Shown piece after piece: positions 1,777 through 25,718 of a stretch of 37,498 nt of DNA (position 1 is its first letter; each line of letters begins with the position of its first letter). The notes under the pieces are model-generated. The model did no database searches. It worked only from the letters and a program-made list of their open reading frames with translations, and was not told where the DNA came from. Origin of the DNA: a virus; IMG/VR virus record IMGVR_UViG_3300038429_000797, positions 1 through 37,498 of that record. One strand, 5' to 3'. The position numbers and the translations under genes were made by a program.

Positions 1777-1793
1777 TTTTTGCTCCGCAAAAA
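1777..1793 (-). promoter_or_regulatory. Shine-Dalgarno hairpin before the 1774 start
   Basis: Read on the minus strand, TTTTTGC-GGA-GCAAAAA is a perfect 7-bp stem with a 3-base loop, ending 2 bases before the ATG. The Shine-Dalgarno GCGGAGC spans the loop and both sides. One of a family of such sites in this window. Confidence 0.6.
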
Positions 1794-1888
1794 CAGGGAT
1801 CAGGTTTCAGGGGCCAGGGGTCAGTTAAAAGCCCGAAAAGCAACCGCAGATCCTTCGCCCGCCGCGGCGGACTCAGAATGACAAGCGA
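1794..1888. repeat. Composite dispersed repeat: 7-bp-period tract plus 'CCGCAGATCCTTCG' element
   Basis: 1796-1827 is a tract of degenerate 7-bp units (variants of CAGGGGT, CAGGGGC). It is followed by GCAACCGCAGATCCTTCG, a GC palindrome around GCCGCGGCGG and CAGAATGACAAGCG. The same order recurs at other gene junctions in the window, for example 7661-7746, 20849-20943 and 21384-21470. Confidence 0.7.
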
Positions 1889-1890
1889 CC

Positions 1891-4800
1891 CTACAGCAGC
1901 AGCTCGTAGCCGATCTGATAGAGAGTCGAGGGCAGCAGCGCCGCACTGACGACAAAGGTCGCGACGGTAGTTGTGGCTGTTCCGCTGACCACTCCGGATG
2001 AAATTCCCGAAGCGGTAATCAACACCGTTGGAGCGTGCGGCAGCGCAGACTGGAAGGTAACAGTGCAGAGCGTGCCGGCAGCCAGTCCGGTTGCGCCGGT
2101 GAGAATGGTGATCTGGCCGATGAGCGTGGAGCCCACCACGTTGCCGGTCGCGCCCGATCCGGCGGCCGAGCCGACAGCGACGGTGCCGGCCTGCTCCGGT
2201 GGAGCTCCGGAGACTGGCACGTCATAGGGCGAAAGCTCCTCGTAGAGCGTCAACTCATCCATGAGCGCGCCGCCGGGAGTGAGTGTAAGAATCTGGCCGC
2301 CGCCTATGCTGGTCGTCGCCGAAGCCCCATAGCCGCCGCCGCCGGAGATGATCACGTTGGGATTCTGCAGCCAGCCCGCGCCGGGATTGGTGATGGTGAA
2401 CCCGGCAACTGTGGAGCTCGCCAGGTACGCCGTTCCGCTTGCCCCAGTGCCCCCACCGCCGCTCAGTGAGACAGTGGGAGGCGTGAGGTAGCCCGAGCCC
2501 TGGGTGACGATCGTAAAGCCCGTTACCTGGCCGCCGGCGACGGTTGCCGTGGCCGTAGCCTGCACGCCGCCAGAAAGTCCAGGAGCGGAGAGCGTGACCG
2601 TGGGCGATGTGGTGTAGCCCGCGCCTCCGGCGACTCCGACCCCGGAGAGCAGGTACTCGCAGACCGCCGTCGCCGCCGCTCCGGAGCCGCCGCCGCCGCT
2701 GAACGAAATCGACGGTACGCTTTGGTAGCCGGGATAGTCCTCCGTGGTGATGGTGATCTGGTCGACAGCGCCGCCGCTGACGGCGGTGTAACCGCCCGCG
2801 CCCGAGCCGCCGCCGCCGGTGAAGTTCAATGTCGGCGCCGAAGTGTATCCGAGGCCTCCGTTGGTGATGGTTGCGGAGGTGACGAAGAGCGCGCCGATAG
2901 CTTGTGCCGACGCGCCCGAGCCGCCTCCGCCGGAGAGCGTGATGGTAGGCGCAGAGGTGTAGCCATAGCCGGGGTTGGTGAGCGTGAAGCCGGTGACCAC
3001 GCCTCCGGAGATGGACGCGGTGGCCGTTGCTGAGTAACCTCCAGGCAGCTGCGGAGCGGAGAAGGTGACAGTAGGCGGGGACGTATAACCCAAGCCGCCG
3101 CCGGATCCCGCACCGCCCGATGTGAGCGCGATGCCGAGAACGCTGGAACCCGCGAGCGAGGCCGTAGCCGTGGCCTGCGTTCCACCCACCGGCGGCGCTG
3201 CGATCGAGACCGTGGGCGTGCCGGTGTAGCCGTAGCCGGTGTTGAGCAGAACAATTTCCGTCACCACGCCGGCAGTGAGAACCGCATAGGCCGTCGCGCC
3301 CTGGCCGGTTCCGTTGATGGTGACCGCGGGAGCCGTGGTATAGCCGTGTCCGCCGTTAGTGATAGACAGGCCGCCGATCGCCATGCCGTAGAGCTGCGCG
3401 GTGGCAGTGGCGTTGGTGGTAAAGACGCCGCCGCCGGAGAGCGTGACCGTGGGCGCGGTGCTGTAGCCCGAACCCGCCGCGTTGATCGTGAAGCCGGTGA
3501 TGAGCTGGCCGCCGCCGGGCTGCGTTGCGCCCAGCACGGCCGTCGCCGATGCGCCCGAGCCGCCGCCTCCGGAGAATGTGACGGTTGGGGTCGTCGTGTA
3601 GAGCGTCATCGGGTTGGTGAGGATGACCTGAAGAACGCCGTTGTTATAAAGCGTGGCGTAGGGCTGATCAAGATAAGGATTGAAAGAAACTGTGGGCGCC
3701 GAAGTGTAGCCCCAGCCGTCCTGGCCCACCACGGAAGCCTGAACTCCGTTCCACTCGTAGACGCTGGGATCCGTTTCGTTGACTGGAACCACCAGCGAGA
3801 CGGCCAAGGCGCGCTCGCCTCCTTCGTCTTCGCTCTCCTGCTCCTCGATCTGAAAGCGCAGGTCGCCGCTAATCTCAAGAACTTTATTCGTCCAGCCCAG
3901 CACCGGGAAGGTGAATTGCATCACGTCCGTGGGCTGCATCTGCCAAGCCGCCAGCGACATGGGGAAGCTGCCCGATCCCTGCTGCCGGTTGCGCATGAGG
4001 TTGATCTTGGCCACGCGCTGCGCCTGCACGATAGAGATAACAGAGCGGAAGCTTAAATCCTTGGGCAGCAGGATGCCGCCATCCTGTGCGAGAAACTCGT
4101 CATAGCCGAAGCCATGCAGCGCATCGTGGGCATATTGCGGGTAGCTGGTGGGCTGCCAGGCGAGTGGCCAGGTATCCTCCGTCTGCCCGTACCACCATCC
4201 ATTCGAGTCGTAGAGATCGGATGCGCCGCCCTCGCCGCGGGTGATGTTGTTGTAGGGATAATTGGGAGCGATATAAGTTCCGTTGACGCGATTGAAGAGC
4301 TCCTTGAAGCTGCGATTCGGCATCCACGTCGGAGTTCCAACCAGCGCGCCCTGATCAAAGACGAAGCTCGGCCCCTGCCAATACGCGGGCCAGATAAACC
4401 ACTGGCCGCCGATGCGCGAGATCCTCCCGGCCGCCGCCGGCATCATCATGGCCAGCGCCGCGCCGGGCGATGTGCCTGTGTCGTAGTGGAGATTGAGCTG
4501 GTAATTCTGCTCAAAGCCCGCCGAGGTCAACACATCCTCATCGCACACGTTGGCCGCGGCGATGAGCTGCGCCTGGTTGACTGCCGCGTTGGGGCTGGGA
4601 GTGACAGTGATCAGAGGTTGTGTGGTGTAGCCTGCGCCAGGATTGGTGATATTAAAGCCCACCACCTCGCCGGCAGTGGGCCCGGAGCCGAGTATGGCGG
4701 TGGCCGTAGCCATGGTCAGGGTTCCAGCGGGCGCGGGGTAGCAGTAGCCGGGCCCGAGTGGCGGCGCGATCGTCACGGTGGGCGGGGTAGTGTATCCACC

Positions 4801-5802
4801 GCCTCCGGAGACCAGCGTGATTCCAGCGAGCGTGCCGCCGGTGATGACGGTTCCGATGCCGCCGGGCTGCACGGGCGTGATCTGCGCGGTGGCGACGCAA
4901 TCCTGCGTATCGCCCAGGCCGAAATCCGCATCCGTAATCGCGTCGGCAACGATCAGCGCCCAGTTGGCGCTGAAGCTGCGGCCGCCGGTGCGCGGATCGT
5001 AGATATCGTTTTTGCCGCGGACAGTGAAGCGGATCTCGGGGAAATTCGGAAACTGCGTCGAGTCGTAGCCGATCTGCAAAAAGACATAAGTGCAACCGCC
5101 GCCATAGGGAGACTGATTTACATTCGCCGCCCAATTAGGGTCGGTGGCCGCGAGCTTCTGCACGATATCGCCGGGCAGCTGGTCGCCGTAGCGCGCCTCG
5201 CAATAAACCTTGCCGGCGAACTGATAGTGATTTCCACCGGGGCCGATGCCGTAGCCGAGGCCCATGCCGTAGTAGGGATGCTGGCCGTAAGGGGTGGTAT
5301 TCAGCACCGCACCGGGGGTGTTGGCCTGCACGTCGTTGGCTGCGATGCCGCCGAAGTTGATGCCGTTGCGCGTGGTATTGGCTGGGTTCGCCGTATTGGG
5401 GAAGGCGGGGCTGGTGTTTGAGGTCTGCTGCCAGAAGACCTGGCGGCCGTCAAGATATAAATTCACGATGGAATCGATCTGGTGACCGGCCAGAGCGATG
5501 ACCAGGTTGTAAAGCGGAAGCCCTGTGTTGCCGAAGCCGGTGGTGGATTGGTAGACAATGGTACCCCCGATCCGCTGCTCGCCATAGACCACCTGGCGCA
5601 GGCCCGCGGCCTGGCGCACGGTGATGCCCAGGCCGCGCTGGTTCGCCAGAGCCTCGCTGATGGCCGCGGCTTCCATGCTGATGCCGCCGGCAGCCATGGC
5701 TTGAATAGCGGCGGCCAGCAAAGGCGAAGCTGCGCCTCCAGTGAAGTATTCGAGCGCAATTGCGCCGACTAGCATGGCTGCGCCGGTGATGGCTTTGCTC
5801 AT
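1891..5802 (-). CDS. J-like tail tip / host specificity protein with Gly-rich repeats
   Basis: A 1303-residue tail tip protein, expected at the end of the tail where it contacts the cell. The N-terminus (1-60) has a hydrophobic, Ala/Gly-rich segment followed by a region resembling the N-terminal part of lambda J-type hub proteins (VVYGEQRIGGTIVYQST). The middle (about 430-680) is non-repetitive. From about 680 to 1190 there are some 12 repeats of roughly 40 residues built on G-Y-T-S-A-P-T-V-T followed by SGGGGSGASA; two more occur near 314-400. Repeats of this type form elongated beta structures in phage tip and fibre proteins (family knowledge). Position after the NlpC-like gene fits the order hub - peptidase - J. 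The start at 5802 follows a Shine-Dalgarno hairpin. Confidence 0.85.
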   Translation of the reverse strand: MSKAITGAAMLVGAIALEYFTGGAASPLLAAAIQAMAAGGISMEAAAISEALANQRGLGITVRQAAGLRQVVYGEQRIGGTIVYQSTTGFGNTGLPLYNLVIALAGHQIDSIVNLYLDGRQVFWQQTSNTSPAFPNTANPANTTRNGINFGGIAANDVQANTPGAVLNTTPYGQHPYYGMGLGYGIGPGGNHYQFAGKVYCEARYGDQLPGDIVQKLAATDPNWAANVNQSPYGGGCTYVFLQIGYDSTQFPNFPEIRFTVRGKNDIYDPRTGGRSFSANWALIVADAITDADFGLGDTQDCVATAQITPVQPGGIGTVITGGTLAGITLVSGGGGYTTPPTVTIAPPLGPGYCYPAPAGTLTMATATAILGSGPTAGEVVGFNITNPGAGYTTQPLITVTPSPNAAVNQAQLIAAANVCDEDVLTSAGFEQNYQLNLHYDTGTSPGAALAMMMPAAAGRISRIGGQWFIWPAYWQGPSFVFDQGALVGTPTWMPNRSFKELFNRVNGTYIAPNYPYNNITRGEGGASDLYDSNGWWYGQTEDTWPLAWQPTSYPQYAHDALHGFGYDEFLAQDGGILLPKDLSFRSVISIVQAQRVAKINLMRNRQQGSGSFPMSLAAWQMQPTDVMQFTFPVLGWTNKVLEISGDLRFQIEEQESEDEGGERALAVSLVVPVNETDPSVYEWNGVQASVVGQDGWGYTSAPTVSFNPYLDQPYATLYNNGVLQVILTNPMTLYTTTPTVTFSGGGGSGASATAVLGATQPGGGQLITGFTINAAGSGYSTAPTVTLSGGGVFTTNATATAQLYGMAIGGLSITNGGHGYTTAPAVTINGTGQGATAYAVLTAGVVTEIVLLNTGYGYTGTPTVSIAAPPVGGTQATATASLAGSSVLGIALTSGGAGSGGGLGYTSPPTVTFSAPQLPGGYSATATASISGGVVTGFTLTNPGYGYTSAPTITLSGGGGSGASAQAIGALFVTSATITNGGLGYTSAPTLNFTGGGGSGAGGYTAVSGGAVDQITITTEDYPGYQSVPSISFSGGGGSGAAATAVCEYLLSGVGVAGGAGYTTSPTVTLSAPGLSGGVQATATATVAGGQVTGFTIVTQGSGYLTPPTVSLSGGGGTGASGTAYLASSTVAGFTITNPGAGWLQNPNVIISGGGGYGASATTSIGGGQILTLTPGGALMDELTLYEELSPYDVPVSGAPPEQAGTVAVGSAAGSGATGNVVGSTLIGQITILTGATGLAAGTLCTVTFQSALPHAPTVLITASGISSGVVSGTATTTVATFVVSAALLPSTLYQIGYELLL

Positions 5803-5803
5803 G

Positions 5804-5820
5804 GTTTTCCTTCGGAAAAC
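5804..5820 (-). promoter_or_regulatory. Shine-Dalgarno hairpin before the tip protein
   Basis: On the minus strand, GTTTTCC-GAA-GGAAAAC is a perfect 7-bp stem with a GAA loop that contains the Shine-Dalgarno GAAGGA, one base before the ATG at 5802. Confidence 0.6.
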
Positions 5821-5856
5821 AGTTGTCAGGGGTCAGGGGCCAGGGGTCAGTTAAAA
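5821..5856. repeat. 7-bp-period repeat tract
   Basis: Degenerate tandem units of 7 bp (GTTGTCA, GGGGTCA, GGGGCCA, GGGGTCA) fill the gap between the NlpC-like gene and the tip gene, directly next to the hairpin. Confidence 0.75.
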
Positions 5857-5863
5857 GCAAAAA

Positions 5864-6304: not shown

Positions 6305-6342
6305 GTTTTTGACCCCTGATCCCTGACCTCTGATCCCTGGAT

Positions 6343-6897: not shown

Positions 6898-6994
6898 GGA
6901 AAAACCTCAGCGGTGCTAGCGGGGTCAGCGTTGTTAGCGGAGTTAAATGCCTGTTGCGAACACGCGCGAAGCGCGGCTAACGCCGCCAACTCCG

Positions 6995-7642: not shown

Positions 7643-7643
7643 G

Positions 7644-7660
7644 GTTTTCCTTTGGAAAAC
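7644..7660 (-). promoter_or_regulatory. Shine-Dalgarno hairpin before the distal tail gene
   Basis: On the minus strand GTTTTCC-AAA-GGAAAAC, a perfect 7-bp stem with the Shine-Dalgarno AAAGGA across loop and 3' arm. The stem is identical to that at 5804-5820 with a different loop. Confidence 0.6.
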
Positions 7661-7746
7661 AGGGGTCAGTTGTCAGTGAACAGTTGTCAGTTAAAGGCCC
7701 GAAGGGCAACCGCAGATCCTTCGTCCACCGCGGCGGACTCAGGATG
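7661..7746. repeat. Composite dispersed repeat (7-bp tract plus CCGCAGATCCTTCG element)
   Basis: Units GGGGTCA, GTTGTCA, GTGAACA, GTTGTCA are followed by GCCCGAAGGGCAACCGCAGATCC and a palindromic CCACCGCGGCGG core ending in CAGGATGA. The order and spacing match the element at 1794-1888. Confidence 0.7.
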
Positions 7747-7763
7747 AGAGGGAGTTGAGAGGG

Positions 7764-8327: not shown

Positions 8328-10385
8328 CTACTGGTTGCAGGTGAGCTGGAAGGTGATGGCGGTCGCGCTCGACACGGCGCTCAGGTCTGCCGCGATAATG
8401 TCGCCCGCGCTGACGGCCGTGGTCGTAAAGTCGGACACAGTTGTGCTTTCAATCACCGTGCCGGTCGAGATGGAGACGCCGCTAGTACTGATGGAATTCG
8501 ATGCGGTGGGGATCGCCGTGCCTGTGGCAACTTTCCAGGTCTTCACCGTTGCCGTTCCCTGGTCGACCACGATCGACCAGCCCGCGATGGTGCAAGGGAA
8601 GGGAACGACCAGGTACTGGATCACTCCAGTAGTCAAGGCGCTTCCCCCCGGCGGTCCGAGCACGAACGGCAGCGAACGCGTTTTCAGGCGATCGACATAG
8701 GCGGTTGAGGCCGGGGCGGTCGAGTTATTGTCGGCGGATTGAGTTACAACCACTGTACCTGTCGGCAGGTTGGGCGTGCCAGTGAAAGTGGGCGATGCCA
8801 GCGGCGCTTTCGCGTTCATTTGCGTCTGCACGCTGCTGGTCGCATCGAGATAAGCCATCACGGTAGGCGACACGCCGTCCACTGTTTTATTGGTGAGGGT
8901 TTGCGTGTCCGTAGTGCCGATGATTGTCCCGGCAGGCGCGGCGACTGCGGTGTATACGCCCGTCGAGCTCTCTTCCAGGATGCTCTGCGCACCCGGCGTG
9001 GTAGGAGCGTTTGCCGTCGAAAACGTTCCCAGGCCGCTAACCGCCGTGTTCGGGATCTGATTCTCGCCGCCGACAGTTGTGCCGTTGGCGGTATAGTACA
9101 CGATCTGGTTGGTGTTGCCGGTGTTGATGGTGCCGGTGCCCGATCCGCTCAAACCTTGCGCGGCCAGGACGGCCCAGTAGGTTGCGTTCGGCGGAGCCTG
9201 GTTAGTGCTGGGCGCAATGGCGATGTAAGACGAGCCGCCATTCGAGACCGCATCAGGCACGACATAGGCCGTCACGCTGGACCAGGCGCCGAGCCAGATC
9301 AAGCCCGTGCTGCCAGTGGCTCCGGTTGATCCAGTTGGCCCAATCAGCGATGTGCAGGATCCTGGCCAGGAGCCGGAGGCCTTCGGCCCGTAGAGACAGT
9401 CGGTCGTAGTGAGGAGGAAGAAGTCACCGTTTACGCCGGTTCCGCTCGATGGCGCGCCGGTGCCGTTCCAGACCGTATTTCCATTTGTTCCGGCCGCGCC
9501 CGTCGCGCCAGTGGGGCCAACGAGTGACGCACAGGTGCCAGGCCATGCGCCGGAGGCCTTCGGGCCATAAAGGCAGTCGGTCGTCGTGAGCAGATAAAAA
9601 TCGCCGTTCGCGCCAGTGCCGCTCGATGGCGCGCCGGTTCCGTTCCACAACGTATTCCCGTTCGCGCCAGTGCTGCCAGTGGCGCCCGTCGCACCGGCCT
9701 GGGCAAGCAACGCCCAATACGACGTATTGGTAGGGAGCACGTTCGTGCTTGAGGCGGTGGCGATGTACGACGAGCCGTTATAACTCACGGCATCGGGCGC
9801 GACGTAGGCCGTGGAGCTTGACCACGCGCCCATCCAGATAGCCGCGCCGCCGGCCGGCCCGGCAGGGCCTGGAACGCCGGGCTGCGAGACGACCAGGCTG
9901 GCATCGTTGGGGTTGTAGAGGTCGAAATCGCACGAGCCGCCCGCCGAGCCGGTGGCTGCTGCGCACCAGGCGAAGGAGCCGGTGACGGCCGTGCCGGAGC
10001 CCGCCGGCTGCACGCAAGAGTAGCCGGGCCCGAGGATCTGCGCGCCGCTCACGTTGTCAACTGCGGTCACGCTATAGCAGAGATTCTGGGGCGTGGTCAG
10101 CATCGTGTCAGCCAGGTTGACCGAGAAGACGCCGGCAGTGACCACGGTGCAGACCGAACGCACCGTGCCCTGGCCGTTGCCGTTGATCCTGTAGCCAAAC
10201 GGCGCGCCGGAGTTGGTGACGGGCGCAAAGCAGATGGTCGCGTTGGCCACCAGTGTATTGCTCGCGTCCTGGAACTCGTTGGCGTTGACATTGACGTAGC
10301 CGAGAGGCGTGGTAGCGAAAGCCGGCGGACAGCTAACAGCGATCAGCGAACAGGCAACGGCGATTACGCGGAAGATGCGGCGCAT
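8328..10385 (-). CDS. Exported fibre-like protein with collagen-like segments and carbohydrate-binding-like modules
   Basis: A 685-residue protein. Residues 1-25 are a Sec signal peptide ([10 protein letters not shown]..., cleavage after AFA). An N-terminal domain of about 130 residues is related to that of the 14462 gene. Two modules at about 183-229 and 363-409 (GAWSS.TAYV.PDAVS..GSSYIA) have the W/Y pattern of small carbohydrate-binding modules. Between them are two 59-residue tandem units starting NGNT(L/V)WNGTGAPSSG, each followed by Gly-X-Y collagen-like stretches. The later part (TLTNKTVDGVSP...KAPLASPTFTGT) is typical of phage tail fibres. It is therefore a tail-fibre architecture carrying an export signal. 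It may be a receptor-binding fibre, or a surface protein made during lysogeny. The start has GGAG upstream. Confidence 0.8.
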   Translation of the reverse strand: MRRIFRVIAVACSLIAVSCPPAFATTPLGYVNVNANEFQDASNTLVANATICFAPVTNSGAPFGYRINGNGQGTVRSVCTVVTAGVFSVNLADTMLTTPQNLCYSVTAVDNVSGAQILGPGYSCVQPAGSGTAVTGSFAWCAAATGSAGGSCDFDLYNPNDASLVVSQPGVPGPAGPAGGAAIWMGAWSSSTAYVAPDAVSYNGSSYIATASSTNVLPTNTSYWALLAQAGATGATGSTGANGNTLWNGTGAPSSGTGANGDFYLLTTTDCLYGPKASGAWPGTCASLVGPTGATGAAGTNGNTVWNGTGAPSSGTGVNGDFFLLTTTDCLYGPKASGSWPGSCTSLIGPTGSTGATGSTGLIWLGAWSSVTAYVVPDAVSNGGSSYIAIAPSTNQAPPNATYWAVLAAQGLSGSGTGTINTGNTNQIVYYTANGTTVGGENQIPNTAVSGLGTFSTANAPTTPGAQSILEESSTGVYTAVAAPAGTIIGTTDTQTLTNKTVDGVSPTVMAYLDATSSVQTQMNAKAPLASPTFTGTPNLPTGTVVVTQSADNNSTAPASTAYVDRLKTRSLPFVLGPPGGSALTTGVIQYLVVPFPCTIAGWSIVVDQGTATVKTWKVATGTAIPTASNSISTSGVSISTGTVIESTTVSDFTTTAVSAGDIIAADLSAVSSATAITFQLTCNQ

Positions 10386-12549: not shown

Positions 12550-14462
12550 CAGTAGGTGTACTCCACAATCATGGCCACGCTTGTCCCGGTAAGCGTACCG
12601 CCCATCACCGGGTCAATCCCCGTGCCAGTCGTCCAGCTTGCCCCGCTCACGGTGCCCGAAGAGCTATAGGCATAGGAGTTTCCGCAAGTGATTGCCGCGC
12701 TCAGAATCGTTGTGCCTGTACCTGCGCTGCCAAAAGCAGGATTGACGGTCGTGGTATTTGAGGCGTTGTCACTGCGACATCTGATAGCAATGATGGTGCG
12801 CGTAACACCGGAATCGTTGTAGCAGGTGTTGTTGACCACGGCGTCGTCGCCCGAAGATAGCGCGTGCGAAGTGCCGCTGCCGCCCCATGCCTCAGTACAG
12901 GAACCCTTGCTGTATTGCGGGGATAAGTTCGCCGCCGGAAGCACATCTGTGTTTTGCAGATAGTAAGTAGAAATTGTGCCGTTATTGCAGGCTGTCAGGC
13001 GGTGATTGGTGGAGTCGTTCCAGAAGTAGTCAGAGCCCGAGGCGCAGGTAAACCAGCTCGGCTTTGCTCCCTCTGTTCCGCCGCCGGAAAACTGCGTAGA
13101 GCTGAACGCGAGGCTGGCCAGGCCGCCCATGTTGCCGCTGCCATCGAGCGTTGCATCGGCGTCTACGGTTGAATCGTCTGCACCGTTGCCGATCATGATA
13201 TGCTGCGCGGTCAGCGCGGAGGCAGAATGCGTAACCGTGCCCGTCCCCGCTGCTGCAAATGCGAAGATTGCCCCGTTCCAGTACAAGAGGCCTGTGGTTA
13301 AAGATGGAAGCGAATGGCCAAGCAAACCGCATATCTGCGGGTTGGGATAACTGCTCGTGCTGCACAGATCTCCGCCGGCTGTTCCATTAGGCGGCAGCGC
13401 GGTAGGTATCGCTGGCGGACCCGATATCTGCGAGTAGGCCACCTGGGCGCATGTCGGGCCGGAGGATGTGTCGGCTATTTCGTATTGTCCCGCATTGCAA
13501 GCGCCATTCCCGGTGCGCGCTGCTGCCGCGCCTGATGAGTCGCTGGCGGCGATCGCTGCCGCCTGCGCGGCAGCCGCAGCTCCCGCCGCATCGTAGTCTG
13601 TGCCGGCGGTTGCCTGGGCTACGTTGGCGCCATTACCCTTCAGTAGGCCTGCGAAAGTGGTGATTGTGGCGGTGCTTAGATTGTTCGGTCCAGCAGGCCC
13701 TGTTGCGCCCGTTGCGCCTGCCGTCCCTTGAGAACCCTGCGGCCCGGTAGCTCCGGTTGCGCCTTGAGGGCCTTGCGGCCCAGCGGCGCCAGCCGCACCC
13801 GTTGGACCCGTTGCCCCGGTTGGGCCCGCGGGCCCGGTTGCGCCGATAAGAGAAGCGAGCCATTGAGATTGAGTGCCAGAGAACCCCGCCGCCACGGCGA
13901 TCTGGTAAGCACTCAGCCCTGCAGAGCCCTGCGATCCGCTTCCGCCACTGCCGACGCTCACCGTGCAGACGCCGGTGCAGCCGTTGATACTCTGCACATA
14001 ACTCACGCCAGGCGACGGAGGAATGGACGGGATCCATTCATCGAAGTTATCGACGCCGCCCAAATACCAGTAATTCGACGCGCTGGGCTGCACACAGGAG
14101 CCGAGCAGCGAGGATCCATTAGGCGTTACCAGTTTCACGTTCCAGCACAGTCCGGCGGGCACTGTAAAAGCCGAATCCGGCATCGCGGGGATTGTGAATT
14201 GACCGTTGACGACGTCGGCTGTCATTGCCGCGGCCGTTGCCATGCCGCCGCCCGGCTTGTGATAGACGGTCGGAACGCCGGAAGAGGAAACCGGCGACCA
14301 GTAGACGGTGCACTTATTGCCCCAGTTCGCATTGGAGCAAGCCAGGGCATTGCCGTCCTGAAGATTGGACGCCGTGACCGGAACAGTCTGAGCGCGCGCC
14401 AGCGGACAGCTAACAGCGATCAGCGAACAGGCAACGGCGATTACGCGGAAGATGCGGCGCAT
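12549..14462 (-). CDS. Exported collagen-like / fibre-like protein
   Basis: A 637-residue protein. Residues 1-24 are a Sec signal peptide identical for the first 20 residues to the 10385 gene. The N-terminal domain (25-130) is related to that protein. A motif [23 protein letters not shown] (about 183-205), common just before collagen-like stretches in phage fibres and bacterial adhesins, precedes about 17 Gly-X-Y triplets (207-259, rich in GAT, GPQ). The remainder is Ser/Thr-rich with a fibre-like C-terminus. Collagen-like segments give trimeric rods. The first gene of the five-gene secreted block; start at 14462 with GGAG upstream. Confidence 0.8.
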
Positions 14463-19062: not shown

Positions 19063-19093
19063 AACTCCTCCATGCGGCCAGTATAGCACTGCT

Positions 19094-19348: not shown

Positions 19349-19357
19349 CTTGGCTCC

Positions 19358-19708
19358 CTAATCCTTCAGTTGGCCGCCCTTGACGAGCTGGTGGCCGCGC
19401 TCAAGCCAGCGCATCACATAAGCAGTTGCCGGGCCGGCGCCAACCAACCAGCAGCGGCCGTTCCTTCCGCCGGCAACGGCGCGAATGTCCGCTTTCAGCT
19501 CTCCCGGCGGAAGCGCGTTGCTTGCGCCCCCTTCAGCGAAGTCAGTACGCACAGGAGTATTCGCCATGACGCCAAGCATGAAGACCGCCGCACCAGCGCC
19601 CAGCGCCGGCTTCAGAAGCTTTTGCTGAACATCTGCCGGGAAGCGAGCGAGCAACTCCGCCATGCCTTCGAGTTCAGACGTGTCGATAGTGATCTCGCCG
19701 TAGGCCAC
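19358..19708 (-). CDS. N-terminal half of an HK97 gp10-like connector/tail protein
   Basis: A 116-residue frame from a GTG start (MAYGEITIDTSELEGMAELLARF) with GCGGAGC in a hairpin upstream; a TTG further upstream is less likely. The pattern LLKPALGAGAAVFMLGV..TPVRT and AYVMRWLERGHQLVKGG corresponds to the first two thirds of HK97 gp10-like proteins, which help join the tail to the head. It ends in an in-frame TAG at 19358-19360, after which the rest of the family continues in frame. Position between tail tube and chaperone is not strictly canonical, as gp10-like genes usually precede the tube gene. Confidence 0.7.
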   Translation of the reverse strand: MAYGEITIDTSELEGMAELLARFPADVQQKLLKPALGAGAAVFMLGVMANTPVRTDFAEGGASNALPPGELKADIRAVAGGRNGRCWLVGAGPATAYVMRWLERGHQLVKGGQLKD

Positions 19709-19709
19709 G

Positions 19710-19725
19710 GTTTTGCTCCGCAAAC
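19710..19725 (-). promoter_or_regulatory. Shine-Dalgarno hairpin before the GTG at 19708
   Basis: On the minus strand GTTTGC-GGA-GCAAAAC: a five-pair core stem with the Shine-Dalgarno in the loop. It is a slightly imperfect member of the same family and supports the GTG start. Confidence 0.5.
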
Positions 19726-19765
19726 GGTTATCAGTTTTCAGTTGTCAGCGGTCAGTTAAAGGACC

Positions 19766-19796
19766 CGAGTGGCGCTCTTTTTCAGAACGCCACTCG
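19766..19796. other. Hairpin after the tail tube gene
   Basis: CGAGTGGCG (19766-19774) and CGCCACTCG (19788-19796) form a 9-bp stem with a 13-base loop in the gap downstream of the tail tube gene. In the minus direction it is followed by GGGTCCTTTAACTG, a poor T-run. It may attenuate or protect the highly expressed tube mRNA. Confidence 0.4.
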
Positions 19797-19826
19797 CTGA
19801 CTCGCCGAACCGCCGAGAGGTTAAAG

Positions 19827-20336: not shown

Positions 20337-20338
20337 CG

Positions 20339-20357
20339 GTTTTTCCTCCGGAAAAAC
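20339..20357 (-). promoter_or_regulatory. Shine-Dalgarno hairpin before the tail tube gene
   Basis: On the minus strand GTTTTTCC-GGA-GGAAAAAC: a perfect 8-bp stem whose loop and 3' arm hold the Shine-Dalgarno GGAGGA, two bases before the ATG at 20336. Confidence 0.6.
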
Positions 20358-20383
20358 AGGGTGAGTGTGAGTGGTGAGTGCGA

Positions 20384-20416
20384 ACCGCAGATCCTTCGCG
20401 GCGCTCAGGATGACAA
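20384..20416. repeat. Short form of the CCGCAGATCCTTCG element
   Basis: ACCGCAGATCCTTCG followed by CGGCGCTCAGGATGACAAGC, lacking the long palindromic core. It lies between the tail completion stop codon and a GAGTGTGAGTGGTGAGTG tract (20360-20380). Confidence 0.65.
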
Positions 20417-20417
20417 G

Positions 20418-20831
20418 CTAACTGGCGTAAAAATGAATCATGTAATCCGTAGTGGTGCGGTAGCAGCGGGCGTCCTGCTCGTAGAGATCGCGGGCGCTCG
20501 ATACTTCGATCCATGCGACGCGGGTTCCGTCAGGCAATGTGCCGGTAAAGCCCTCAAGCACGGCGCGGATTGCCGCCTGGGCTTGCTTGGCAGACAGGTA
20601 GGAGGCGTTCTGTAACCCTCCCGACCAGGTATCGATCTGAAGGCGAATCTGATTGAGATCGCTGGAGCCGTTGAGCAGGTAGTTGGGAACCTCGCTGATG
20701 ACCTGGTAGCTGGCGCAAGGGCAGGTTGGATCCTCGGGAACCAGGACCGGGTAGAAGCGCGCCGGATTGCCGATGACGGCCTGAACGCCTGAAGCAGCGG
20801 CGACAAGTTGAGCGATGCCGATCTCAATCAT
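20418..20831 (-). CDS. Tail completion protein (DUF3168-like)
   Basis: A 137-residue protein starting MIEIGIAQLVAAASGVQAVIG. The layout (N-terminal helix, VLVPEDPTCPCASYQVIS, RLQIDTWSGG, then AKQAQAAIRAVLEGF) is that of the DUF3168/gp17-type tail completion proteins that cap the tail before it joins the head. The order after head closure fits. The ATG at 20831 has CGGAGC upstream within an imperfect hairpin; the open frame upstream of it is repeat DNA and is excluded. Confidence 0.8.
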   Translation of the reverse strand: MIEIGIAQLVAAASGVQAVIGNPARFYPVLVPEDPTCPCASYQVISEVPNYLLNGSSDLNQIRLQIDTWSGGLQNASYLSAKQAQAAIRAVLEGFTGTLPDGTRVAWIEVSSARDLYEQDARCYRTTTDYMIHFYAS

Positions 20832-20848
20832 GGTTTTTGCTCCGGCGG

Positions 20849-20982
20849 AAACAGTGAACAGTGGACAGTGAACAGTGGTCAGTAAGAGTCCGAAAGGCAA
20901 CCGCAGATCCTTCGTCCGCCGCGGCGGACTCAGGATGACAAGCGCGAAAAACGGACCCCTGATCCCTGAAACCTGACCACTG
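20849..20982. repeat. 7-bp tracts flanking a CCGCAGATCCTTCG element
   Basis: 20849-20884 is made of units such as CAGTGAA, CAGTGGA, CAGTGGT. 20890-20943 is the full second element with TCCGCCGCGGCGGA palindrome and CAGGATGACAAGCG. 20955-20982 has ACCCCTGATCCCTGAAACCTGA in the opposite sense. The whole 154-bp gap between two genes is repeat-derived. Confidence 0.75.
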
Positions 20983-20985
20983 CTT

Positions 20986-21363: not shown

Positions 21364-21366
21364 AGA

Positions 21367-21383
21367 TTTTTGCTCCGCAAAAA
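21367..21383 (-). promoter_or_regulatory. Shine-Dalgarno hairpin before the head closure gene
   Basis: On the minus strand TTTTTGC-GGA-GCAAAAA, identical in stem and loop to the one at 1777-1793, nearly 20 kb away. Confidence 0.6.
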
Positions 21384-21470
21384 CAATGAACAGTGATCAG
21401 TGAACAGTGAAAAGGCTAAATGGCAACCGCAGATCCTTCGTCCGCCATGGCGGACTTAGGATGACAGGCT
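21384..21470. repeat. Composite dispersed repeat (7-bp tract plus CCGCAGATCCTTCG element)
   Basis: ACAATGAACAGTGATCAGTG units lead into GGCAACCGCAGATCCTTCG, palindromic TCCGCCATGGCGGA and TAGGATGACAGGCT. The palindrome centre differs from other copies (CATG instead of CGCG) but pairing is kept. Confidence 0.7.
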
Positions 21471-21472
21471 GG

Positions 21473-22363
21473 TTATGGTTGGTAGTAGACGCGGTTGCTG
21501 TCGAGCATGCTCTTGACACTGTAGGGCAGCTCCTTGAGGGCCGCGGCGGCAATCGGAAGGCGGTTCTCGTACCAGTGGGTAATAAGCATCAGCATGCCGC
21601 GCTGCGCGATGCCGGGGAGCGGTCTGCCGAGCCACGCCGATGCGCCAGCGGCGGCTGTGGCTGCCGAAGCGCTCAGTGCGGCGTTGCCGTTGGTGTCTAT
21701 GGAAAGAATTGTTCCGACGAGCGGAGTGGGGTTGCCGTCGACGACCGGCCCAGCGCCGGGGATGCTGAGCTGCCAGCCGACATTGTTCGCGGTGAAGACG
21801 GCGCCGGAGGTGACCGCCGCGTTGACGGCGATGGAGACCGTGACCGGGTTGCCGTAGCCGGCGAAGTAATCGACCCAGACGCTATCGGCGCGGCGCAGCA
21901 CCCAGGGCCATACCGGCGGCGGATTGCCCTCGGTAGGCGGCTGGCGAAGGATGTGCGCGGGCTCCTGCCAGGGCGAGACGTAGTAGATGCTGGGATCGAG
22001 GGTTTGCACGTTGCCGTTCTGGTCGAGATACATGATGTCGGCGACGTATTGCAGCGGCGAGCGCGAGAGCTCGAAGCGGTTGTGCGGGCGCGACTCGAAC
22101 TCGTGATGCGTGGGGATGTCGTAGATGACGTTATAGGGGATGGGCAGCCGCTGCTCCGGGAAGCCGTCAAAGTATTCACGGAATCCGCGGGTGAGAAAGG
22201 AGCGGTTGGTGTGGAGCTCGGCCGCCTCGCGCGCGGCGCGGATGAGGCCGCCGATGTACTCGTCATCATCGACGAAGGACGAATCCACCTGGCACTGGCG
22301 CTTGGCCCAGGAGAGCGGGATGGGCTCCGAAGTAGCGTGCTGTGTGATGTTGAGGCCGGCCAT
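21473..22363 (-). CDS. Head-tail connector protein with an inserted beta domain
   Basis: A 296-residue protein. The N-terminal part (IPLSWAKRQCQVDSSFVDDDEYIGGLIRAAREAAELHTNRSF) and the C-terminal part (RGMLMLITHWYENRLPI) match the phiE125 gp8 / gp6-like connector family, where helices bind below the portal. Family members of this type are usually about 180-220 residues. Here about 75 residues rich in Val, Ala, Thr and Gly (from NPVTVSIAVNAAVTSGAV to about 265) interrupt the link between DYFAGYG and the final helix, probably an extra beta-sandwich. The start at 22363 follows a perfect Shine-Dalgarno hairpin. Confidence 0.8.
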   Translation of the reverse strand: MAGLNITQHATSEPIPLSWAKRQCQVDSSFVDDDEYIGGLIRAAREAAELHTNRSFLTRGFREYFDGFPEQRLPIPYNVIYDIPTHHEFESRPHNRFELSRSPLQYVADIMYLDQNGNVQTLDPSIYYVSPWQEPAHILRQPPTEGNPPPVWPWVLRRADSVWVDYFAGYGNPVTVSIAVNAAVTSGAVFTANNVGWQLSIPGAGPVVDGNPTPLVGTILSIDTNGNAALSASAATAAAGASAWLGRPLPGIAQRGMLMLITHWYENRLPIAAAALKELPYSVKSMLDSNRVYYQP

Positions 22364-22367
22364 GGGG

Positions 22368-22380
22368 GCTCCTTTGGAGC
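22368..22380 (-). promoter_or_regulatory. Shine-Dalgarno hairpin before the connector gene
   Basis: On the minus strand GCTCC-AAA-GGAGC then CCCC and ATG. The stem sequence differs from other sites but again places AAGGAG across loop and 3' arm, so structure rather than sequence is shared. Confidence 0.55.
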
Positions 22381-22545
22381 AGGGAATAGGGACTAGGGAC
22401 TAGGAAAAGACCAAAAGGCAACCGCAGATCCTTCGCGCCGCTCAGGATGACAGATCTAAAATGGGGCCGGCCGCCAGCAGTCAGCGACCAGCCCGCGGCT
22501 CGGTAAAGCCGGAAACTGACCACTGACCACTGACAAACGATCACT
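22381..22545. repeat. Repeat-derived intergenic region
   Basis: AGGGAATAGGGACTAGGGACTAGG (7-bp units), then GGCAACCGCAGATCCTTCG with the short CGCCGCTCAGGATGACAG form (to 22453), unique DNA, and ACTGACCACTGACCACTGACAAACGATCACTG (22508-22543). No gene seen. Confidence 0.7.
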
Positions 22546-22549
22546 GCCT

Positions 22550-22993
22550 TTAAGCCGTTCCGAAGTTCGGGCTGACCGACAGGACGGTGGAAGCGATGCT
22601 GGTGGCATCGTTGACGACGGGGTGCGCCTTGGAGCCGTACTGGATGGCGATGACGCCCTGGATGACGGCGCCGGTCGAGCCGCCGCGGGTGATGACGCCG
22701 CGCACATACTGCTGCAGCGGGCGGTAAACGTCGAGAACGACAGCCTGGCCACTGGCCGCGGCTGCGGTGTCGGCGGTGTCGGAAGCGGCGAAGTCGGCGG
22801 CATCGCTGCCGTTAGACTGCGCGCCGCCCTGGGCCTTGATGCCCGGCGAGCCGTCGGTGACGGCGCCGAAGAGAGCGACGAAGACCACTCCCTCGTAATC
22901 CGCCATGTTGATCTCGGAAGTGTTGACGCTGGTGGTGCCGACTGCGGTGGCTCCCAGCACAACCGTGACCTTGTGATTCGGTGCGAAGTTCAT
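22550..22993 (-). CDS. Phage head structural protein (possible decoration protein)
   Basis: A 147-residue beta-rich protein. The start MNFAPNHKVTVVLGATAVGTTSVNTSEI and the later part LDVYRPLQQYVRGVITRGGSTGAVIQGVIAIQYG resemble a family of small uncharacterised structural proteins encoded just after the major capsid gene in Proteobacteria and Acidobacteria phages. Size, composition and place suggest a capsid decoration or stabilising protein, but this is inferred. The start at 22993 has TTGGAGGG in an imperfect hairpin. Confidence 0.65.
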   Translation of the reverse strand: MNFAPNHKVTVVLGATAVGTTSVNTSEINMADYEGVVFVALFGAVTDGSPGIKAQGGAQSNGSDAADFAASDTADTAAAASGQAVVLDVYRPLQQYVRGVITRGGSTGAVIQGVIAIQYGSKAHPVVNDATSIASTVLSVSPNFGTA

Positions 22994-22994
22994 A

Positions 22995-23015
22995 GGTTTT
23001 CCCTCCAAGGAAACC
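22995..23015 (-). promoter_or_regulatory. Imperfect Shine-Dalgarno hairpin before 22993
   Basis: On the minus strand GGTTTCC-TTGGA-GG(G)AAAACC: seven pairs with a small bulge, the Shine-Dalgarno GGAGG in loop and 3' arm. It borders a GTTGTCAGTTATCAGTTGTCAG tract. Confidence 0.45.
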
Positions 23016-23050
23016 AGTTGTCAGTTATCAGTTGTCAGTTGTCAGTCGCC
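23016..23050. repeat. 7-bp-period repeat tract
   Basis: Units GTTGTCA, GTTATCA, GTTGTCA, GTTGTCA in perfect 7-bp register, directly after the hairpin of the structural gene. This is one of the cleanest tracts for seeing the period. Confidence 0.8.
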
Positions 23051-23100
23051 CCAGTCTCCGCACCGATTAAACGGTAAAAACCAGAGGCTGAGAGCTGCTT

Positions 23101-24414
23101 TTAGGAGCAGCGGACGCGGACGAAGGCCTCGGCGAGAGCCGGCATGCCGTCAGTCTCAGAGCGGGAGATGAAGCCCACCTGGTTAGTGAGCGCATAGAGC
23201 TCGACCAGGCGCTGGATCTCGATGTCGAGGGCGTCGACGATTTCATACTTCGAGAAGTCGCCCACGATGCCGATGTACAGCCCGGTGGTGTAGGTGCTAG
23301 GCGCGTACTCCGACATGTAGAAGGGGCGGTTGAGGACGCGGTCAGGCTCGCCGGCAGAGATGCCCGGCTGCCAGACGTATTGCCCATAGAGGTCCTTGAT
23401 CTGGCGGATGAGGCCGATCGTGGTGCGGTGGAAGATCCATGTGGCTTTGGCCTGATACTGCGCCTTGAGGGTGTAGAGCGCGGTCATGAGGCAATCGGCC
23501 GCGCCCACGCTCGATGTGGGCGTGATGAAGGGCGTGTTGGAGTTGCCAACATAGCCGGTGACCACGTCGCGCGAGGTGTCGATGCCATCAGCGGTGGGAG
23601 TGAAGACGCCCAGGGGCTGCTCCACGCCAGAGCCGAGCAGGAAGGCTTTCTCCTGCACGATGCCCATCTTGTAGCCGAGGCGCTTGAGCACCAACTCTTC
23701 AACCATGGGGGTGAGGCGCAGCAGCTTCTTGGAGACCGTGATCTGCTGGGCGAGGGGATGGGGCTTGAGCTCGCGCTTGGCCAGGGTGAGGGAAGTGTCC
23801 GGCACGCCGGTGGCAAGCTCGGCGACCCAGGTGGGATCGGCCACGTCAGCGAGACGGGCGGGGATGCCCAGCGAGGCGGAGCTCGTCAGCACGGTCTTGG
23901 TGGCCATGCGGCGGATGAAGACTTCGTTGTCGACGATCTCGATGATGCGGCCGGCGAGCTGCTCGGAGGCGACCAGGTATCCGCCCTCAACATCGGTGTC
24001 GGTGGCCAGGGCGTTGCGGATGTCGAGCGCGCTGCCGCCCTTGACGAGGGCATTGCGGACCTCTGCGGAGATTTCCGGCATGGGACCGCCGAAGAGTGCG
24101 GCGCAGACCGCAGCGTGATATTCAGGCGTGCCGCGAATGGTCTTGGCCTTGAATCCGCCGGCGGCATTGTCGTGCCGAGGCTGGACGGCTGCGGGAAGAG
24201 CGGCGCTGGCGGAGTTATCCGACTCGCGCTTTTCCTGGGTTTCGTGGAGCTTGACCTCAGTGTCAAGCTCATCGAAGCGAGCATCCATCTTGCGAAGGAT
24301 CTCCTTCTCATCGGCGTTGGTGCTGCGCTTCTCCGCCGCGGCTTTGTCGAGAACCTGGCGGTACTGAGCAGTCAGCTCGCCCTTCTCGTTCCTCAGTTCA
24401 ATCGATTTGCGCAT
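23101..24414 (-). CDS. HK97-fold major capsid protein
   Basis: A 437-residue capsid subunit. The N-terminal region (1-90) is a charged coiled coil (RNEKGELTAQYRQVLDKAAAEKRS, KMDARFDELDTEVKLHETQEK) corresponding to the delta/scaffold domain removed by the maturation protease. The capsid fold starts near 110 with FKAKTIRGTPEYHAAV and includes GGYLVASEQLAGRIIEIVDNEVFIRRMA, VSKKLLRLTPMVEELVLKRLGYKMG and FLLGSGVEQPLGVFTPT. The start at 24414 has GGAG six bases upstream; the longer open frame upstream is Arg-rich and unlikely. It lies directly after the protease gene, as usual. Confidence 0.93.
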   Translation of the reverse strand: MRKSIELRNEKGELTAQYRQVLDKAAAEKRSTNADEKEILRKMDARFDELDTEVKLHETQEKRESDNSASAALPAAVQPRHDNAAGGFKAKTIRGTPEYHAAVCAALFGGPMPEISAEVRNALVKGGSALDIRNALATDTDVEGGYLVASEQLAGRIIEIVDNEVFIRRMATKTVLTSSASLGIPARLADVADPTWVAELATGVPDTSLTLAKRELKPHPLAQQITVSKKLLRLTPMVEELVLKRLGYKMGIVQEKAFLLGSGVEQPLGVFTPTADGIDTSRDVVTGYVGNSNTPFITPTSSVGAADCLMTALYTLKAQYQAKATWIFHRTTIGLIRQIKDLYGQYVWQPGISAGEPDRVLNRPFYMSEYAPSTYTTGLYIGIVGDFSKYEIVDALDIEIQRLVELYALTNQVGFISRSETDGMPALAEAFVRVRCS

Positions 24415-24572
24415 TTGATTCTCCAAAAAACGATAGAGGTTCATCCGAGCGGCCCGGCGGGGGCGGCGCGATGGTTTCCTTTGAGCGCCGCGCGGCCCTG
24501 GCCGGCGCGCCCTGAAGGCAGAGTTACGAGTCGAACGCAAATAGCCCGCTGCACGCGAGGTTTTTGCGGTGA

Positions 24573-25703
24573 TCAGTTTTGAGAGCGCTCATAGAGGGAC
24601 AGGCGCTGGCGCGCCAAGGCCTCGAAATAACCATCGGAAGCATCGTCGAGGCTTCCGTCGGCAATCTCGATATCGTGCTCCTTGGCGGCAGCCTTGACGC
24701 GGCCGCGGGCCTTGTCTTTCTCCGCCGCGTCGGGCATATCGGTAGACTTCCAGCGCGCAATGGCATTACGGATATGCGATGCGGACTTTTCGTCGGTGGA
24801 GAACTTGATAGGCAGCTTCCAATCGGCAAGCTTCTCGGAACCCTGATAAGCGAAAGCAGATTTCTCCAGGTCCTCGCCATCGACGCGCTTGGTTTTTCCG
24901 TCGCCGTTGGCCAGGTTGGCATGGCTGCCGATCATAGCCTTATCACAGTTACAATCAGACGCGGCGCAATGCTCAGCTGTGCAGCCGCCCTGACAGTTGC
25001 AGTTACTACAATCGCCCGAGGGGCAGAAATCGCACTCGCATTCACAAGCATCGCCGGCGCGGGGTTTCGTAGCGCGCAGGTTCGCGGGCACATGTTTGAA
25101 GCCGCGCAGGTTGAAGCTCTTGACCAGGGCTCGGGCCTGGGTGGTCTGGTCCTCATCTTGCCTTACGATTGCATCGGCGAAGCCTTTATCGACGGCGTCT
25201 TCCGCTCCCATCCAAGTCTCGCCATCCATGAGCGTCTTAATCTCATCGGCTGTCTGGCCAGTCTTTTTGACGTAGATTCCGCCTACAGTCAGGGTAATCT
25301 TTTCGAGGGTATCGGCGATCTTGAGGAAAGCCGGGGCGTCGCCGTAGAAGAGGCAGGCGGCGTTGTGGATCATGATCATGGCGCCCACGCCGACGGAGAC
25401 AGTATCGCCGGCCATGGCGATGATGGATGCAGCAGAGGCAGCCAGGCCGTCAACGAAACAATCCACGGGCTTGCCTTGCGAGCGGATGAGGTTGTAGATG
25501 GCCACGCCCTCAAAGCAGTCGCCGCCGGGCGAGTTGATGCGCAGGGTGATGCGGTCGAATGCGCCGGCCTGTTTGATAGCATCAGCGACCGACTGCGCTG
25601 TTACGCCGCCGCCAGACCAGAAATTTTCGCCGATTTCGTCGTAGAAGAGCAGCTCGAGGGTAGTGCCGGCCGTTTGCGCGGCAAAACGTGGCTTTAAGCG
25701 CAT
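24573..25703 (-). CDS. ClpP-like prohead protease fused to a Cys-rich knot and a DUF6582-like domain
   Basis: A 376-residue protein. Residues 15-190 are a ClpP-type (S14) serine protease used for capsid maturation: INSPGGDCFEGVAIYN, the Ser in DGLAASAAS (Ser90) and His113 in MIMIHNA. Residues 220-253 contain 11 Cys in 34 positions (CECECDFC, CSNCNCQGGC, CNCD), a likely metal-binding or disulfide knot. Residues about 275-350 (LEKSAFAYQGSEKLADWKLPIKF, HIRNAIARW, ARGRVKAAAKEHDIEI) match a phage domain I know as DUF6582. Typical phage ClpP-like proteases lack the Cys-rich part. The C-terminal portion may act as scaffold or be cleaved off. The start follows a Shine-Dalgarno hairpin. Confidence 0.88.
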   Translation of the reverse strand: MRLKPRFAAQTAGTTLELLFYDEIGENFWSGGGVTAQSVADAIKQAGAFDRITLRINSPGGDCFEGVAIYNLIRSQGKPVDCFVDGLAASAASIIAMAGDTVSVGVGAMIMIHNAACLFYGDAPAFLKIADTLEKITLTVGGIYVKKTGQTADEIKTLMDGETWMGAEDAVDKGFADAIVRQDEDQTTQARALVKSFNLRGFKHVPANLRATKPRAGDACECECDFCPSGDCSNCNCQGGCTAEHCAASDCNCDKAMIGSHANLANGDGKTKRVDGEDLEKSAFAYQGSEKLADWKLPIKFSTDEKSASHIRNAIARWKSTDMPDAAEKDKARGRVKAAAKEHDIEIADGSLDDASDGYFEALARQRLSLYERSQN

Positions 25704-25705
25704 TG

Positions 25706-25718
25706 TTTCCTCCGGAAA
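25706..25718 (-). promoter_or_regulatory. Shine-Dalgarno hairpin before the protease gene
   Basis: On the minus strand TTTCC-GGA-GGAAA, a perfect 5-bp stem with CGGAGGA as Shine-Dalgarno, then a 7-bp tract (AGTTTTCAGCGGTCAGTTGTCAG at 25722-25744). Confidence 0.55.

Follow-up and report, generated by a model that had tools for sequence, protein, structure and literature searches.

The window (the whole 37,498-nt stretch of DNA that was analysed) comes from an uncultivated phage of peat or soil. Hairpins enclosing the Shine-Dalgarno sequence (SD) were located on its minus strand at all ten gene starts where they had been predicted. Five late genes (1774, 5802, 7642, 20336 and 21363) carry a perfect palindrome of 7-8 bp with a 3-nt loop around the SD, at most 3 nt from the start codon. 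Perfect stems of 5 bp are found at 22363, 25703 and 19708, and the stems at 20831 and 22993 are interrupted or imperfect. Loops are mostly GGA, with GAA, AAA and AA also present (5802, 7642, 22363 and L322). Touching each hairpin on its 5′ side is a G-poor heptamer array (CTGACCA-type) that the original prediction overlooked. Array and hairpin are together termed a cassette below; at the perfect cassettes the start codon lies 0-5 nt from the hairpin.

1777..1793, minus strand: SD hairpin of gene 1774, TTTTTGC(GGA)GCAAAAA, 7 bp, 2 nt before ATG
1794..1826, minus strand: heptamer array of gene 1774, AACTGACCCCTGGCCCCTGAAACCTGATCCCTG on the coding strand, abutting the hairpin
5804..5820, minus strand: SD hairpin of gene 5802, GTTTTCC(GAA)GGAAAAC, 7 bp, 1 nt before ATG
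5821..5852, minus strand: heptamer array of gene 5802
7644..7660, minus strand: SD hairpin of gene 7642, GTTTTCC(AAA)GGAAAAC, 7 bp, 1 nt before ATG
7661..7692, minus strand: heptamer array of gene 7642
19712..19724, minus strand: SD hairpin of gene 19708, TTTGC(GGA)GCAAA, 5 bp perfect core, before GTG
19725..19765, minus strand: heptamer array of gene 19708
20339..20357, minus strand: SD hairpin of gene 20336 (major tail protein), GTTTTTCC(GGA)GGAAAAAC, 8 bp, before ATG
20358..20382, minus strand: degenerate array of gene 20336, CACTCACCACTCACACTCACCCT type
20833..20852, minus strand: imperfect SD hairpin of gene 20831 (tail terminator), before ATG
20853..20884, minus strand: heptamer array of gene 20831
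21367..21383, minus strand: SD hairpin of gene 21363 (head closure Hc1), TTTTTGC(GGA)GCAAAAA, 7 bp, before GTG
21384..21411, minus strand: heptamer array of gene 21363
22368..22380, minus strand: SD hairpin of gene 22363 (head-tail adaptor), GCTCC(AAA)GGAGC, 5 bp, before ATG
22381..22404, minus strand: heptamer array of gene 22363, CCTAGTC type
22995..23015, minus strand: imperfect SD hairpin of gene 22993, GGTTTCC..GGGAAAACC, before ATG
23016..23047, minus strand: heptamer array of gene 22993, (CTGACAA)n
25706..25718, minus strand: SD hairpin of gene 25703 (head maturation protease), TTTCC(GGA)GGAAA, 5 bp, before ATG
25719..25752, minus strand: heptamer array of gene 25703

Gene 21363 starts with GTG, and an alternative ATG lies two codons downstream. 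The cassette-bearing structural genes encode the protease, adaptor, head closure, tail terminator and major tail proteins; the terminase, portal, MCP and tape measure, late genes of the same region, have no cassette. A period of 7 is present in the arrays at nearly every cassette of the window, the exception being 20336, and is also absent from L007. Repeat units include CTGAYCM, CCTAGTC and others, with TAACTGA occurring only as single copies, and some arrays (L007 and that of 20336) contain no stop codon. The predicted exposure of arrays at 37 °C is only modestly above that at other starts (~0.61 vs ~0.51).

The palindromes were compared with dinucleotide shuffles (3000 rounds) of the 30 nt upstream of 37 hand-picked gene starts. 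Perfect triloop stems numbered five at ≥7 bp, compared to 0.036 expected (maximum 1 in 3000), and eight at ≥5 bp, compared to 0.45 expected (maximum 5). The claim that late gene starts hold their SD inside small hairpins was therefore borne out, with all ten sites present and palindromes beyond chance. The check proposed alongside it, that folding energies be better than those of shuffled controls, failed, as single-site energies were unremarkable (z-scores 0 to -2.5). At -2 to -6 kcal/mol the hairpins have little stability, and because their stems are also A/U-rich, folding energy shows the effect poorly; single-site minimum free energy was dropped as the main test, being insensitive. The exceptional feature is the palindromes, not their energies. 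Among the 36 perfect triloop palindromes with stems of 7 bp or longer in the phage genomes, 15 coincide with SD sites; the remaining 21 are mostly GC-rich and near the chance count. Phage genomes are not palindrome-rich away from SD sites.

Compensatory changes preserve the pairing. Stems vary yet remain paired (GTTTTGC, GTTTTCC, GTCACC, GTTCGCC, GCTCC, TTCGC), and they differ between relatives at the orthologous start of 22363. In a hand-assembled set of 25 distinct arm pairs, Watson-Crick pairing reached 84.5% compared to 61% with random re-pairing, a level attained in none of 20000 re-pairings, and pairs 2-7 each show more than one pair type. A search pattern blind to pairing recovered new perfect stems such as GTTCGCC/GGCGAAC (5/20 at ≥5 bp, 0.39 expected). 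The other refuting observation proposed, related phages with an SD but no opposite arm, was made in part: L008 has the SD with a broken arm, and in L005 there is a mismatch. The variable stem letters agree with the original argument against simple copying, but only in part: arrays and the stems GTTTTGC and TTTTTGC recur at unrelated genes, so the copying of cassettes also contributes.

Hairpins and arrays are associated at gene starts; where an array has no start after it, the hairpin is missing too. In a comparison sample of 97 contigs fetched by protein, with arrays called by a lag-7 score, 13/28 array-bearing starts had a perfect SD hairpin of ≥6 bp, compared to 9/1112 other starts; five of these nine still follow array-like repeats missed by the score. 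In IMG/VR the 17-mer GTTTTGCGGAGCAAAAC has 16 distinct sites. Thirteen of these follow an array-like tail and stand next to a start, and the three without a start also lack the tail. Within a set partly fetched by the hairpin itself, hairpins accompanied 0/15 arrays without a start vs 17/33 arrays with one. A perfect hairpin is missing from about half of the starts with an array, which indicates that the hairpin is dispensable. The array tail as sole cause of the hairpin was rejected, since just one of ~85 sampled arrays in other phages bears a hairpin.

These distributions bear on an explanation that we consider unlikely but worth weighing, namely that the array spreads and that, where it joins the SD, template switching or fold-back copying makes the palindrome and keeps it perfect, without selection on RNA structure. 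Such a by-product would account for the constant company of hairpin and array in the window and for the several stems that are plain copies, and palindrome-making processes do exist: the Omnitrophota genome G006 holds many perfect triloop palindromes, most of them off starts and without an SD, and for that reason it was left out of the argument for selection. However, the phage excess of perfect triloop palindromes falls at starts, start-less arrays have no hairpins, and the start arrays of other phages are mostly hairpin-free.

Folding predictions address whether the hairpins hide the SD. In the perfect GGA-loop hairpins the 5′ arm usually raises the predicted exposure of the SD core relative to shuffled arms; over all 19 cassettes this exposure, a folding-model value for the three loop bases and not equal to proof of accessibility, averaged 0.41 vs 0.27 (Wilcoxon p=0.03). 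At the imperfect sites 19708, 20831 and 22993 the SD is predicted to be hidden. When folded at 10, 25 and 37 °C, the SD was 50-75% unpaired at 1774, 5802, 7642, 20336 and 22363, and hidden at 19708, 20831 and 21363. Given the raised exposure at perfect GGA-loop hairpins, the weakness of the hairpins and their unremarkable single-site energies, simple sequestration of the SD is not supported. A regulated form, in which temperature or an RNA-binding protein of phage or host (CsrA-like, recognising the GGA loop) opens the hairpins jointly and switches on late structural genes, appears rather improbable. It would fit the presence of hairpins at head, connector and tail genes, the predominance of GGA loops, and A/U-rich 7-bp stems weak enough that they could melt at moderate temperature. 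There is also precedent in the T4 late genes e, soc, 49 and I-TevI, whose helices sequester the SD or the start codon (review PMC3014915); both systems place local RNA hairpins at phage translation starts, but in T4 they act in long early transcripts, where they mask the SD or the start codon, whereas here one architecture serves ten genes, usually with GGA in the triloop. Besides the raised SD exposure, what weighs against regulated sequestration is that hairpins with GAA, AAA and AA loops pair equally well and are not CsrA-like, that a Pfam scan of ten window proteins returned no CsrA match, that the window has no Rfam match at the gathering threshold, and that neighbouring late genes lack the element.

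Comparison of gene junctions argues against opening of the hairpin by ribosome coupling, as had been suggested: hairpins occur at junctions with 44-186 nt to the upstream stop, and they are missing from relatives whose genes abut or overlap. The gap between portal and protease genes is 47 nt here compared to -4 to -1 in five relatives; that between 22363 and 21363 is 109 compared to 2-20 in six relatives, with 194 in one more distant relative; and that between 21363 and 20831 is 154 compared to 0 and -1 in relatives, with 521 in L006. Cassettes of this phage occupy places where several relatives leave little or no space between genes. Because genes abut or overlap at several of the same junctions in relatives without the module, array and hairpin behave as a cassette that is gained or lost, and related phages show whole modules coming and going between genes. 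A DNA-level role, with palindrome and array forming a recombination or protein-binding site at a module boundary and the SD overlap incidental, is very unlikely: placement at gene boundaries that differ between close relatives is what recombination linkers would show, and the ESAS repeats of cluster K were proposed as DNA sites (PMC3203893), but pairing stays constant while stem letters change, which is not the pattern of a DNA sequence read by a protein, the distance to the start codon is a strict 0-5 nt, and start-less copies were absent among the arrays examined.

We tentatively favour, at somewhat below an even chance, a model of a portable translation-start cassette for uncoupled genes, of which the hairpin makes up the downstream half; the layout is [G-poor heptamer array]-[SD hairpin]-[0-5 nt]-[start codon]. 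The array would provide an unstructured landing (standby) zone and, in most cassettes, stop codons ending upstream translation. The weak local hairpin would keep the neighbourhood of the SD from pairing with the surrounding GC-rich mRNA and would display GGA in its loop. Given such a landing zone and local shielding, the gene would start at a set rate that does not depend on its upstream neighbour. Against this reading, the MCP gene, presumably the most expressed, has no cassette. The shared translational control first proposed survives in so far as the hairpins belong to translation starts and their pairing outlasts changes in both arms; coupling and simple sequestration are not supported. 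To our knowledge, no portable translation-start signal of such kind has been described before.

Parts of the architecture resemble known systems. The start-associated sequence (SAS) of cluster K mycobacteriophages is a short SD-containing element of unknown function before starts (PMC3203893; 188-genome survey PMC12699233). It too lies a few nt upstream (3-7 nt, compared to 0-5 nt here), in larger intergenic gaps and in many copies per phage. A second upstream element (ESAS), for whose arms the authors found little support for RNA pairing (PMC3203893), is present at about half of SAS sites; here the upstream part is a heptamer array. In contrast, the letters of SAS are fixed (the 13-mer GGGATAGGAGCCC), and it is confined to non-structural genes and has been described as non-palindromic; the cassettes do not match it, vary in stem and loop letters while keeping the pairing, and serve structural genes. 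TAACTGA heptamer direct repeats in marine Beggiatoaceae, cyanobacteria and Bacteroidetes have a suggested role in translation (PMC4679880). They share with the arrays a G-poor composition, little predicted structure, at least two direct copies just upstream of start codons, and sporadic occurrence, theirs across distant lineages. However, ~90% of the intergenic regions bearing them have no SD, and an SD hairpin was not described; here the array precedes an SD hairpin, and its heptamer is more degenerate (CTGAYCM, CCTAGTC, TTCACTCA) than the exact TAACTGA unit. Ribosome standby sites, where initiation at a structured SD is helped by a single-stranded surface lying upstream (PMC3936740), are a principle rather than a family, and we apply it to the array by inference only.

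Isolated phage records contained no near match to window positions 1-25000, and cassette matches in those records and in plasmids were at chance level only. An acidobacterial host was guessed and left unconfirmed, the GTTTT-stem hairpin and the GAAGGATCTGCGG repeat being absent from the two plasmids scanned (Granulicella, Acidisarcina). Genome contigs scanned with TTTTTGCGGAGCAAAAA gave, among the matches listed, mostly unrelated sites; 15 of 118 lay at or near starts, and none of these 15 follows a phage-type heptamer array. The scan led to an Omnitrophota chromosome whose stems measure as much as 15 bp and extend into the ATG (16 matches vs 1 in the reversed sequence). An SD inside a perfect, start-abutting hairpin of changing letters, beside another short repeat, is thus found in this chromosome and in several soil or peat phages, with further single cases of SD-centred hairpins in other bacterial genomes. 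SD-centred palindromes may conceivably be a general class of start cassette that recurs horizontally or convergently and makes initiation independent of neighbouring genes, although we regard this extension as doubtful.

The portable-cassette model would bring heptamer repeats at starts and phage start-associated sequences, two observations that lack an explanation, into one hypothesis. If it is correct, gene starts in some phages would be modular parts swappable between genes, each module carrying its own ribosome site, local RNA shield and upstream landing strip. The loss and regain of translational coupling in phage operons would become directly testable, and short natural start modules would be on offer.

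Hairpins containing the Shine-Dalgarno (SD) sequence were present, as originally predicted, at all ten late-gene starts (1774, 5802, 7642, 19708, 20336, 20831, 21363, 22363, 22993 and 25703). Five have a perfect 7-8 bp stem with a 3-nt loop, three a perfect core of 5 bp and two an interrupted stem. Among 37 hand-picked window starts, stems of at least 7 bp were observed five times versus 0.036 in dinucleotide shuffles. The folding-energy comparison proposed with the original prediction was unremarkable (single-site z 0 to -2.5) because the stems are A/U-rich; folded in isolation, the hairpins reached -1.8 to -6.1 kcal/mol. The exceptional feature is therefore sequence symmetry, not stability. 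Across 156 kb of phage sequence, 15 of 36 perfect triloop palindromes lay at starts, where the phage excess was located; the remaining 21 were mostly GC-rich and near a rough chance estimate. The window start element is real and non-random. Other repeats in the window include recurring perfect palindromes ATCTGTCGCT(CTG)AGCGACAGAT at 35068-35144, not linked to starts, a direct tandem duplication of ~120 bp (30838-30955 and 30955-31085) between a peptidase-like gene and the next gene, and an internal direct repeat, CTTCCACGTGAGACAACCGGCCCTCGTGATCGGTGTGAC, in gene 32753 (32476-32515 and 32550-32592).

Each window hairpin is adjoined upstream by a G-poor degenerate heptamer array (CTGACCA, CTGATCC, CCTAGTC), missed in the original prediction, that terminates in CTG or ACT at the first base of the stem; the repeat before the 20336 hairpin is less regular. 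In most arrays, though not all, two or three reading frames are closed by stop codons. Among 1140 gene starts on 97 contigs fetched by protein similarity, with arrays called by a lag-7 score, perfect SD hairpins of at least 6 bp occurred at 13 of 28 array-bearing starts versus 9 of 1112 others, while shuffled upstream regions gave 0.45 expected in total. Five of the nine hairpin starts scored array-less still follow array-like repeats that the score missed (the window and its near-identical copy L001 at 20336; L007/L160; L322/L323). Arrays alone are common before phage starts, mostly lacking a hairpin (~1/85 with one). Hairpins accompanied 17 of 33 arrays with a start and 0 of 15 without a following start, a contrast inflated because part of the set was fetched by hairpin, although the zero itself is sound. 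A search of all IMG/VR gave 16 distinct sites for the 17-mer GTTTTGCGGAGCAAAAC: at 13 an array-like tail precedes it and a start codon follows immediately, and three have neither. The coding sequences of the two large genes 10385 and 14462 open with nearly the same 60 bases (10324-10385, 14400-14462), each after an array without a hairpin. An unrelated phage contig (L270, at 453) carries TCAGCC(GGA)GGCTGA, an SD hairpin immediately 3' of a TAACTAA heptamer array.

The expectation of paired substitutions in related phages held in part: stems at the orthologous adaptor start differ yet pair in several relatives, but one is mismatched and another broken.

Stems at the head-tail adaptor start (22363 in the window)
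Window: GCTCC/GGAGC
L004 and L007: GTTTTGC/GCAAAAC
L006: GTTTGC/GCAAGC, one G-U
L005: form with one mismatch
L008: broken stem
L140/L128, more distant homologues: GCTCC(GAA)GGAGC
L151, more distant homologue: TTCGC/GCGAA

In a hand-assembled set of 25 distinct arm pairs that included imperfect stems, Watson-Crick pairs made up 84.5% versus 61% with arms re-paired randomly (0/20000 reached the observed value), and stem pairs 2 to 7 each showed more than one pair type. A pattern search for array, GGAG and ATG, with pairing not required, found stems of at least 5 bp at 5 of 20 sites versus 0.39 expected, and a new perfect 7-bp stem, GTTCGCC/GGCGAAC.

Outside phage genomes, an Omnitrophota genome (G006) has 19 copies of the core TTTGCGGAGCAAA; 14 lie 0-9 nt from an ATG, with perfect stems of differing letters up to 15 bp that extend into ATG. 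An unbiased scan of 0.79 Mb found 16 start-adjacent palindromes with SD-like motifs there versus 1 in reversed sequence. A palindrome-making process is nevertheless a live rival explanation in this genome, because many palindromes lie away from starts: perfect 3-nt-loop forms (GAA/TTC, GGA/TCC, GCA/TGC) are abundant (L391-L408, L419-L458), many adjoining CATCCGCGAAGCGGATG repeats, and an SD-bearing subset abuts start codons. The TTTGCGGAGCAAA pattern is scarce in other Omnitrophota (four more genomes among 145, one copy each) and likewise rare in the class of genome G010. It also precedes starts in two bacterial genomes, G001 (L112, L374) and G004 (L098/L367), there following other short repeats, TTTAGAATTTAG and ATTCGCCATTCGC.

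The nearest known systems to the window cassettes (array, SD hairpin, 0-5 nt, start codon) are the cluster K start-associated sequences, a fixed 13-mer at non-structural genes with RNA pairing unsupported (PMC3203893; surveyed in PMC12699233), and the TAACTGA heptamer repeats, start-adjacent and mostly without SD (PMC4679880). Hairpins of T4 late genes block access to the SD or the initiation codon (PMC3014915). Placement is alike, but the window element lacks at least one tested defining feature of each system. The window element belongs among start-associated elements as a variant; no description of the composite was found in the literature searched, and it is apparently undescribed so far.

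The window is a 37.5-kb virus record from IMG/VR. Its minus-strand late genes encode terminase, portal, head maturation protease, major head protein, adaptor, head closure, tail terminator and major tail protein. Window hairpin starts follow gaps of 44-186 nt. The portal-protease gap is 47 nt versus -4 to -1 in five relatives; the 22363-21363 gap 109 nt versus 2-20 nt across six relatives and 194 nt in a further, more distant relative; and the 21363-20831 gap 154 nt versus 0 and -1 in relatives (521 nt in L006). Because these junctions are tight in relatives, array and hairpin appear as a unit where upstream coupling is absent, which argues against the earlier suggestion that a coupled ribosome opens the hairpins. 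Cassettes are not at every separated junction: the MCP start lacks one despite a gap of 158 nt. A dispersed repeat, frequently with palindromic centre GTCCGCCGCGGCGGAC, lies upstream of several cassettes; CGCAGATCCTTCG is limited, among fetched loci compared, to the near-identical window copies L001, L002, L003 and L162.

Window features
1-1203: integrase
1831-1885, 7693-7745, 20383-20415, 20892-20941, 21421-21465, 22420-22452: dispersed repeat GTCATCCTGAG..GAAGGATCTGCGGTTGC
33751-33785: the same repeat, opposite orientation

Contigs near-identical to the window occur in other metagenomes, which may be from peat; the host may be an acidobacterium.

In a folding model, shuffling the 5' arm of perfect GGA-loop hairpins usually lowered the predicted exposure of the SD core. 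Over all 19 cassettes, imperfect ones among them, mean exposure was 0.41 versus 0.27 with shuffled arms (p=0.03); the imperfect sites 19708, 20831 and 22993 went in the opposite direction, and the SD at other starts of this phage averaged 0.25-0.28 unpaired. That ribosomes can bind at standby positions 5' of structured sites is already known (PMC3936740). The sequences show that array and hairpin co-occur, that pairing is maintained, that the hairpins are confined to starts and that cassettes are gained or lost between relatives, whereas all effects on translation are inferred. From this predicted exposure and the G-poor, mostly stop-containing arrays we propose a self-contained start module, in which the array would provide an unstructured landing zone and end upstream translation, and the weak local hairpin would guard the SD against mispairing with GC-rich neighbours.
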